From positions 1 through 52,440 of the forward strand of contig JAPLQI010000028.1 of the NCBI GenBank assembly GCA_026399755.1: a DNA stretch of 52,440 bases, written 5' to 3'. The notes under the pieces are model-generated. The model saw nothing but the letters and a program-made list of their open reading frames with translations, did not search any database and had not been told where the DNA came from. The translations under genes and the position numbers were made by a program. This DNA is from Pseudomonadota bacterium. GTDB taxonomy: Bacteria > Pseudomonadota > Gammaproteobacteria > Burkholderiales > Chitinibacteraceae. Numbering within the stretch: the first letter of the stretch is position 1; each line of letters opens with the position of its first letter. Below, piece after piece: positions 5,083 through 52,440 of the stretch.

Positions 5083-8000
5083 ATGAAATACTCGTTCACT
5101 GAGAAAAAACGCATTCGTAAAAGTTTTGCGAAACGGAAGAGCGTCCTTGAGGTGCCATTCCTGCTCGCAACGCAGATCGATTCTTATAGTGAATACCTGC
5201 AGCTAGGGGTTCCGGCCGATTCGCGCCGGATGATCGGTTTGCAAGCTGCGTTTAATTCGATTTTCCCTATCGTCTCTCATAACGAAAACGCTCGATTGGA
5301 GTTTGTGCATTACTCCCTCGGCGATCCTGCGTTTGATGTGCTCGAGTGCCAGCAGCGAGGAATTACCTTCGCGGCTCCACTGCGTGCGCGTGTACGCCTC
5401 GTGATCATGGATCGTGAAGCGTCTAAGCCAACGATCAAAGAAGTTAAAGAACAAGACGTTTACTTTGGCGAAGTGCCATTGATGACACGCACTGGTTCTT
5501 TCGTGATCAACGGTACAGAGCGCGTTATCGTTAGCCAGTTGCATCGTTCTCCTGGCGTGTTCTTTGAGCACGACAAGGGTAAAACTCATTCTTCAGGCAA
5601 GCTCTTATTCTCGGCACGGATTATTCCGTATCGCGGCTCTTGGCTGGATTTTGAGTTTGATCCAAAAGATCTGTTGTTCTTCCGTATCGACCGTCGTCGC
5701 AAGATGCCGGTAACCACGCTGCTGAAAGCCTTGGGTTATAACCCAGAGCAAATTCTGGCTGGTTTCTTCGATACTGATACTTTCCTGATGGACGAAGATG
5801 GCCTGTGCTTAGAGCTGGTGTCAGAACGTCTGAAGGGTGAAATCGCCAAGTTCGATATCGTTGCTGATAATGGCACCGTACTAGTACAGAAAGATAAGCG
5901 TATTACCGCTAAAACCATTCGCGATATTAACGCGTCTGGCTTGAAGAAAATCCCTGTGCCTTTGGATTACTTCTACGGTCGTATTTTGGCACATAACGTT
6001 GTTGATCCATTAACCGGCGAAGTGCTGGCTAAGGCCAACGAAGAAGTGACCGAAGATCTGGCTGCTAAGCTGGATATGGCCGATGTAAAATCCGTCAATG
6101 TGCTGTATGTAAATGATCTAGATCAGGGCGCGTTCCTGTCTATGACATTGCGTTCAGACGATGTGGCTGATCAGTATGGTGCTCGCGTTGCAATCTATCG
6201 CATGATGCGCCCTGGTGAGCCGCCGACCGAAGATTCGGTTGAAGCGCTGTTTAAGGGCTTGTTCTTCGCACCTGAGCGTTACGATCTATCTGCTGTTGGT
6301 CGCATGAAGTTTAACCGCCGTGCTTACCCAGATCGCTTAGAAGAAAAAGCGCCGGGTTGGATGCGTCGTTTCTACGAAGAAGCGGGTCCGCGTGGTGTTG
6401 AAGGTGCAGGCATTCTGTGCACCGCCGACATTATTGCTGTGATCGGTATCCTCTTAGAATTGCGTAATGGCCGTGGCGATATCGATGATATCGATCACTT
6501 GGGTAATCGTCGTGTGCGCTCGGTAGGTGAGTTGGCTGAAAACCAATTCCGCGCTGGTTTGGTTCGTGTAGAACGCGCTGTTAAAGAGCGTTTGTCACAA
6601 GCAGAATCAGACAACCTGATGCCGCATGATTTGATTAATGCCAAGCCTGTTTCAGCGGCAATCAAAGAATTCTTCGGTTCTTCCCAGCTGTCGCAGTTTA
6701 TGGATCAAACCAATCCATTGTCAGAAATCACGCACAAGCGTCGTGTTTCTGCTTTGGGACCAGGCGGTTTGACTCGTGAGCGCGCTGGCTTTGAAGTTCG
6801 TGACGTGCATCCGACGCATTACGGTCGTGTTTGCCCGATCGAAACACCGGAAGGTCCAAACATTGGTCTGATCAATTCGCTTTCTTGCTATGCGCGTACC
6901 AATAGCTACGGCTTCTTGGAAACACCGTATCGCAAAGTGATCGATTGTAAGGTAACTGATGAAATTGAATACTTGTCCGCGATTGAAGAGGGCAAGTACG
7001 TTGTAGCTCAGGCGAATGCCGAGTTCGACGAAGAAGGTCGTTTGACTGACGAGTTAGTGACTTGTCGTTCTAATGGCGACACGATTGTTGTAACGCCTGA
7101 TCGTGTGCAGTACATGGATGTGGCTCCTAGCCAGATCGTATCGGTTGCAGCATCTCTGATTCCATTCTTGGAACACGATGACGCCAACCGTGCGTTGATG
7201 GGCGCCAACATGCAGCGTCAAGCTGTGCCTTGCTTACGTGCACAAGCGCCGTTTGTAGGTACGGGTATTGAACGCACATGTGCAACTGACTCGGGTACAG
7301 CAGTCACTGCTTTACGCGGCGGTGTGGTTGATTATGTTGATGCAGCTCGTGTGGTTATTCGTGTAAACGATGACGAAGCGATTGCGGGTGAAACAGGTGT
7401 AGATATTTACAACCTGATTAAATTTACTCGTTCTAACCAGAACACCAACACCAATCAGAAGCCAGTAGTTATTCGTGGCAGCATTATTGCCAAGGGTGAC
7501 GTTATTGCTGACGGCGCGTCAACTGACTTGGGCGAAATGGCTCTGGGTCAGAATATGACTATCGCATTTATGCCATGGAACGGTTTCAACTTCGAAGATT
7601 CGATTTTGATCTCGGAAGATGTCGTATCTAACGATCGTTATACTTCGATTCACATCGAAGAACTGAACGTGATGGCACGTGATACTAAGCTGGGCGCTGA
7701 AGAAATTACTCGTGATATCTCCAATCTGTCCGAGCGTATGCTGGGTCGTCTGGATGAGTCTGGTGTGGTTTACATCGGTGCTGAAGTAGAAGCGGGCGAT
7801 GTATTGTGCGGTAAGGTAACGCCTAAGGGTGAAACCCAGCTGACTCCTGAAGAAAAGCTCTTACGTGCGATCTTCGGTGAAAAAGCTTCCGACGTTAAAG
7901 ATACTTCGCTGCGTGTACCGTCTGGCATGGTGGGTACGGTTATTGACGTGCAAGTGTTTACTCGTGAAGGTGTTGAGCGCGATCGTCGTGCCCAGTCCAT

Positions 8001-24739: not shown

Positions 24740-25091
24740 ATGGCTAAAGTCGCAGTGATTAAGCGTGAGGAAAAGCGTCGTGCAACCGTCGCCAAGTACG
24801 CCGCCAAGCGTGAAAAGCTGATGGCGGTCATCAATGACCAGAAACGCCGCCAAGCGTGAAAAGCTGATGGCGGTCATCAATGACCAGAATGCATCTGACG
24901 AAGAGCGTTTTGCTGCTCGTTTGCAATTCCAGCAGCTTCCGCGTAATGCAAGCCCAGTACGTCTAGTAAATCGTTGTTCGATTACTGGTCGTGGTCGTGG
25001 CGTGTATCGCAAATTCGGACTCGGCCGTATCAAGCTACGTGAACTCGCCTTTAAGGGTGAAGTTCCTGGCATGGTCAAGGCTAGCTGGTAA
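24740..25091 (+). pseudogene. rpsN: 30S ribosomal protein S14, frame broken by a 46-bp tandem duplication
   Basis: S14 is a head protein at the decoding side, normally 101 residues and essential. The first frame reads [20 protein letters not shown] but stops after 39 residues (TGA at 24857). The rest ([20 protein letters not shown]..., to ...VPGMVKASW) continues in the +1 frame. The cause is an exact 46-bp direct repeat; removing one copy restores a perfect 101-residue S14 of the zinc-free type. A restart at ATG 24834 (85 aa) or 24867 (74 aa) could translate the C-terminal part. It is either an assembly/sequencing artefact, or a real lesion with restart, frameshifting or another S14 gene elsewhere. 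Confidence 0.93.
24798..24889 (+). repeat. Exact 46-bp tandem duplication inside rpsN
   Basis: Bases 24798-24843 and 24844-24889 are identical (each begins ACGCCGCCAAGCGTG and ends GACCAGAA). The unit length is one more than a multiple of three, so it shifts the reading frame. The bases flanking the repeats differ, so the copies are exactly 46 bp. The repeat encodes the [14 protein letters not shown] segment of S14. Confidence 0.99.
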
Positions 25092-25106: not shown

Positions 25107-25499
25107 ATGGCAATGCATGATCCTATCGCCGATATGCTAACCCGTATTCGCAACGCACAACGTGCGGACAAGGCGCAAGTTACAATGCCGTCGTCCACAC
25201 TGAAGTTAGCAATTGCTGGCGTGTTGCAAGATGAAGGTTATATCGAATCGTTTGAAGTCGCAGGTGAAGTTAAGCCTGTTCTGACCATCGAACTCAAGTA
25301 CTACGCTGGTCGTCCGGTTATCGAGCGTTTGGACCGCGTGTCCAAGCCGGGTCTGCGCATCTACAAAGGTGCAACAGAAATCCCAACGGTGATGAACGGT
25401 CTGGGTGTGGCTATTTTGTCCACCTCCAAAGGCGTAATGACAGATCGCAAAGCACGTGCCAATGGTATTGGTGGCGAGCTTCTGTGCGTCGTCGCTTAA
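25107..25499 (+). CDS. rpsH: 30S ribosomal protein S8
   Basis: Central-domain 16S-binding protein and, in E. coli, the translational repressor of the spc operon acting at the rplX-rplE mRNA. The 130-residue protein has [17 protein letters not shown] at the start and ends with the conserved [19 protein letters not shown]. It lies 15 bp after rpsN, with an AGGAGAG site. Confidence 0.98.
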
Positions 25500-52263: not shown

Positions 52264-52421
52264 TTGACCTGCGGTGTAAAAGTCGCGTAAAAAGGTGGCT
52301 CGAGTTTGATGTACAAGTTTCTGCAGTACCGGTTTGGCCGTTTTGCTGGTCTTGGACCTCAAACCTCATGGTGCCTCTTCGAGGCGGTTCATGTTTTACA
52401 AGTTGATAGGAAAGACCCCAA
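52264..52421 (+). promoter_or_regulatory. Candidate promoter and long 5' leader of a cold-shock gene
   Basis: The 310-bp gap between clpS and the cold-shock gene holds TTGACC (52264-52269), an 18-base spacer and TAAAAA (52288-52293). Transcription from near 52300 would leave a 5' leader of about 120 bases with a GCCTC-ttc-GAGGC hairpin (52373-52385) and AGGAAAG before the ATG. Long structured leaders are common in cold-inducible csp genes. The clpS promoter should lie between 52112 and 52260, but I could not place it. Confidence 0.4.
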
Positions 52422-52440
52422 ATGGCTCTGGGCACTGTTA
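52422..52440 (+). CDS. Cold-shock protein, first six codons only
   Basis: The open frame starts ATG and reads M-A-L-G-T-V up to the window edge, the usual start of CspA/CspD-type single-stranded nucleic-acid-binding proteins (expected to continue KWFN). It has a ribosome-binding site and a divergent clpS-clpA neighbour, the classic csp-clpS-clpA arrangement. Only 19 bases are present, so the identity rests largely on context. Confidence 0.6.

Follow-up and report, generated by a model that had tools for sequence, protein, structure and literature searches.

The window, i.e. the whole stretch of 52,440 bases that was analysed, corresponds to all of contig 56 in a draft assembly of 145 contigs and 4,946,219 bases, which was scored as 100% complete and 1.47% contaminated. 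The gene encoding the ribosomal protein S14, rpsN, is located on the forward strand within a ribosomal protein operon, between rplE (L5; 24193..24732) upstream and rpsH (S8; 25107..25499) downstream, on the same strand and both intact according to their frames and family matches. As described in the initial annotation, rpsN was found to be split into two frames. The N-terminal frame (24740..24859) starts at the ATG at 24740 and encodes 39 residues before the stop codon TGA at 24857-24859, and the C-terminal part lies in the +1 frame, where 85 residues are encoded from the ATG at 24834 (24834..25091). Both pieces were compared with the NCBIfam model NF006477 (30S ribosomal protein S14, 101-residue form), which has a curated cut-off of 77 bits. 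The N-terminal piece aligns with positions 1-37 of 101 at 30.5 bits, which is below the cut-off, and the C-terminal piece aligns with positions 18-101 of 101 at 122.4 bits, which is above it. No single open frame matches the full model, which is divided over the two rpsN frames. The C-terminal frame also holds positions 2-54 of the 54 positions of PF00253, and a common peptide of 14 residues, previously said to be shared by the two fragments, was indeed found in both.

The split coincides with an exact tandem repeat of 46 bp in two copies. The unit at 24798..24843 is followed, without any spacer, by an identical copy at 24844..24889, both on the forward strand, and a tandem-repeat scan bore out this duplication, as first described, with a 100% match. 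The two copies meet at 24843/24844. Junction homology is 0 bp, given that the matching run is 46 for a period of 46 and that neither edge extends the match; junction homology beyond chance, by which a slippage duplication would be recognised, is thus absent at rpsN. The repeat is more than would be expected by chance: when the window was simulated 20 times with a third-order Markov model, no exact tandem repeat with a period of at least 25 was obtained. Apart from this repeat, the window contains a single tandem array, which spans 29 bp and has a 12-bp unit.

With regard to related genomes, the comparison with sister strains that had been proposed in the initial annotation gave a uniform answer, as a single copy of the 46-bp unit and a 101-residue S14 are present in all eight genomes of the same genus that were compared. 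In each of them, a 381-bp query matched over its full length but spanned 335 bp, exactly 46 bp less, and the alignment showed a gap of 46 bases. The DNA flanking the rpsN repeat is 95.0-99.5% identical to that of these eight genomes. In seven of the eight, S14 agrees at every residue with the 34-residue N-terminal piece followed by the 67-residue C-terminal piece; in the remaining one (L009), this holds for the N-terminal piece but not for the C-terminal piece. A wider search gave matches in 47 of 61 genomes, the copy number being read one by one within the genus only.

We also searched for a second S14 gene, which had been put forward as one way in which the cell could do without an intact rpsN. 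A PF00253 profile search of the genome returned one match, at the rpsN locus, in the readable DNA, 10 of the 107 pieces taken from the genome being wholly N and thus outside the reach of the search and without countable bases. The same search gave matches in all 14 control genomes. A DNA search with the 1.2-kb rpsN region likewise returned one match in the draft and no second version with one copy of the unit. The option of a second S14 gene is thus not borne out in the readable DNA, and since there is only one S14 match in the genome, a real break would strike the sole copy seen.

The ends of the contigs carry the signature of the way in which the draft was assembled. The overlap test, which took in 133 ends of 97 contigs, showed that facing contig ends overlap exactly in ten cases, by 141 bases in eight of them and by 102 and 69 bases in the other two. 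The contig studied here is itself concerned, as its last 141 bases (52300..52440) are identical to the end of contig C89 (L201). De Bruijn assemblers typically leave end overlaps of a fixed length, that of the largest k, and the 141-base overlaps are characteristic of a graph built with k = 141. The default largest k of MEGAHIT is 141, which suggests this program as the assembler of the draft. Names of the k141 type are carried by two related records among the best 80 of 370 relatives. An alternative graph of k = 47, in which contig ends would overlap by 46 bp, was rejected, since the overlaps are of 141 bases and the duplications in the draft have eight different lengths. In PMC7111523, scaffold end overlaps are described as equal to the largest k-mer, n, for IDBA-UD, or n-1 for metaSPAdes. 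Apart from these overlaps, an identity of 93-94% was found for the contig pair L171/L117, over 3.4 kb, as well as for L120/L137 and L138/L143 at their ends, such pairs spanning 0.6-3.4 kb. They suggest that more than one related strain was present in the sample.

The rpsN repeat is not the only one of its kind in this draft. The scan for exact tandem repeats with a period of at least 25 covered 1.594 Mb of the 4.946 Mb, for the most part the initial 20 kb of contigs. It yielded 14 rows, six of which were dropped (five from a hexamer array in L193 and one from a low-complexity repeat in L180), leaving eight duplications, each with two exact copies of a non-simple unit of 29-92 bp. In addition to the 46-bp unit of rpsN, which shifts a protein-coding frame, they comprise an 86-bp unit at L112 (9494-9666, contig C1), which also shifts the frame and is present in one copy at L125 (55-140, contig C10); a 60-bp unit at L119 (469-589) and a 69-bp unit at L174 (4803-4941), both in protein-coding frames; a 56-bp unit between genes at L146 (7398-7509); a 70-bp unit at L165, within an array of tRNA-Leu-like repeats (1150-2060), where it spans the beginning of one tRNA; a 29-bp unit at L178 (319-376, contig C66), which shifts the frame of a motB-like gene; and a 92-bp unit at L198 (3231-3414), which shifts the frame of a vgrG-like gene. 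The kinds of genes at these loci were judged by eye. Six of the eight duplications thus fall within protein-coding frames; the lengths of four of them (46, 86, 29 and 92 bp) are not multiples of three and shift the frame. Junction homology is 0 bp in five duplications and 1 bp in the other three, which is about the level of chance, and five of the eight lie more than 600 bp from any contig end. The 70-bp duplication at L165 may be natural.

At two of the eight loci, a break or a branch of the assembly coincides with the duplication (L112 with C10, and L178 with C98); the rpsN repeat is located mid-contig. At L112, contig C1 ends in the order A-U-U-B, in which U is the 86-bp unit. Contig C10 opens with the same 142 bases, namely A-U and two more, and continues with one copy only; the branch therefore lies at most two bases from the repeat junction. 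The identity between C1, from its second copy on, and C10, from its single copy on, is only 96%, for which reason a second strain truly carrying the duplication is, strictly speaking, conceivable at this locus. At L178, the overlap of contig C98 with the start of C66 is imperfect and extends over 347 columns; C98 terminates exactly where the first copy of the 29-bp unit has its last base. The genomes of the same genus were also inspected at five of the other loci. One copy was found in all eight at L178, where they are 28-29 bases shorter, in all seven that match at L119, in four of the five that match at L112 (the fifth covers one half) and in three of the six that match at L174, the other matches being partial. 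At L146, where the unit is 56 bp, the relatives are 36-50 bp shorter in four full-length matches.

No such duplication was observed in the control DNA, which comprised 0.400 Mb of G008, a single-contig genome of the same genus, 0.487 Mb from L032-L111 and 0.095 Mb from L003-L031. At the rate found in the draft, 2.0 duplications would be predicted in the G008 sample, the chance of finding none being approximately 0.13, and 4.9 over all controls (0.98 Mb), with a chance of none of approximately 0.007, although the 0.58 Mb of L003-L111 is mostly ribosomal-operon DNA, in which real duplications would be selected against. Given this composition of the sets other than G008, the control supports an assembly artefact without proving it.

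Taken as a whole, the draft is an assembly of the k = 141 type. It contains several exact two-copy duplications, all below k in length, and at least two of these coincide with breakpoints. The duplicated unit at rpsN is well below the k of the assembler (46 against 141 bp), and comparable events recur in unrelated loci, with eight in 1.594 Mb. As there are other such repeats in the draft, two of them at contig ends or branches, the break in rpsN is most likely an assembly mistake, and we estimate at roughly 93% the probability that the second 46-bp copy originated in the assembler. In such a scenario, one sequence would have ended with the unit and the next would have begun with it, their overlap of 46 bp being shorter than k. 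The two ends would then have been joined head to tail, and the overlap would have been kept twice instead of being merged. Such a join would probably have been made in a stretch of thin coverage or at a point of divergence between two related strains of the sample. In that case, one ordinary rpsN of 101 residues would lie between rplE and rpsH in the cell. Against this explanation, the repeat is located mid-contig, 24.8 kb into 52.4 kb, five of the eight duplications are likewise more than 600 bp away from contig ends, the draft is without a second version of the rpsN region with one copy, and the control is weak, as the absence of duplications in G008 has a chance of approximately 0.13. Between the two possibilities raised in the initial annotation, a wrong sequence or another way of making S14, the former is now the best supported; nothing that we found calls for a restart within the repeat, for +1 frameshifting or for repeat contraction. 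The split rpsN is most likely not a real feature, and the biological options for S14 are not needed. Taken at face value, the sequence would suggest that one of the essential ribosomal genes of a free-living bacterium is broken. As a probable assembly error, the case is a warning that drafts scored as 100% complete can hold exact duplications that are shorter than the k of the assembler and that break genes. A cheap check is to tally the exact two-copy tandem repeats of a draft and to see whether contigs end at the repeat junctions.

A real duplication, with the sole S14 gene split and S14 made by low-level +1 shifting, as two fragments or by a minority of cells with a contracted repeat, is very unlikely indeed. 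Should the duplication be recent, it could be restricted to the culture or to a subpopulation and be unstable; its reversion to one copy, through recombination or slippage, would then allow a sufficient number of cells to make S14. Fresh duplications are expected to appear as exact two-copy repeats, such as the one seen here, and several related strains seem to be present in the sample, as the 3.4 kb of L171/L117 at 93-94% identity suggests. Nevertheless, the presence of one copy only in all eight relatives and the junction homology of 0 bp argue against such an event, and a single rare mutation would leave seven similar events, two of them at breakpoints, without explanation. We therefore regard an unstable real duplication as very unlikely.

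A fixed duplication would require S14 to be produced by +1 frameshifting in the overlap of the two frames (24834-24859), or as two fragments with a restart at the ATG at 24834. The frames do overlap, and the C-terminal frame encodes the whole PF00253 domain (2-54 of 54) and exceeds the cut-off of the S14 model (122.4 against 77 bits). However, no known slippery stop of the prfB type, i.e. CUU UGA, was seen in the frame overlap, only a weak GGCGG precedes the ATG at 24834, and the arrangement is absent from all eight relatives. Because the same N-terminal piece is encoded in all eight relatives, the overlap stretch is no adaptation. A fixed duplication of this kind is exceedingly unlikely. It is barely credible that rpsN is a dead copy and that another S14 gene serves the ribosome. 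Some bacteria possess a second S14 gene (type Z paralogues), but the PF00253 search, which was positive in 14 of 14 controls, gave one match in the readable DNA of a genome scored as 100% complete.

Among known systems, programmed +1 frameshifting of the prfB type is similar in that a +1 shift would join the two rpsN frames, but no shift site was seen at rpsN and the arrangement is found in no relative. Short tandem duplications arising by replication slippage resemble the repeats described here in being exact head-to-tail copies; the latter differ in that their junction homology, 0-1 bp in all eight cases, does not exceed chance, that there are many in one draft and that two are located at contig breakpoints. 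A further parallel is provided by local assembly errors, in which overlapping sequence ends are joined but not merged. PMC7111523 describes scaffold joins with overlapping flanks, in which the duplicate sequence needs to be removed. The draft resembles these cases in that overlaps of 29-92 bp are present in duplicate and contig ends share 141 bases. In the cases presented in that paper, which concern IDBA-UD and CLC, Ns stand between the duplicate flanks, whereas the joins in the draft are without Ns.

Two minor observations can be added. L193 contains, near a contig end, a perfect (GCTTTT)n array of 113 bp (6349-6461). The genome is presumably that of an Iodobacter, given that, among the best 80 of 370 relatives, a set from which records of the genome itself may be missing, the three closest named loci are titled Janthinobacterium sp. 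(MAG), Iodobacter sp. (MAG) and Iodobacter sp. BJB302.
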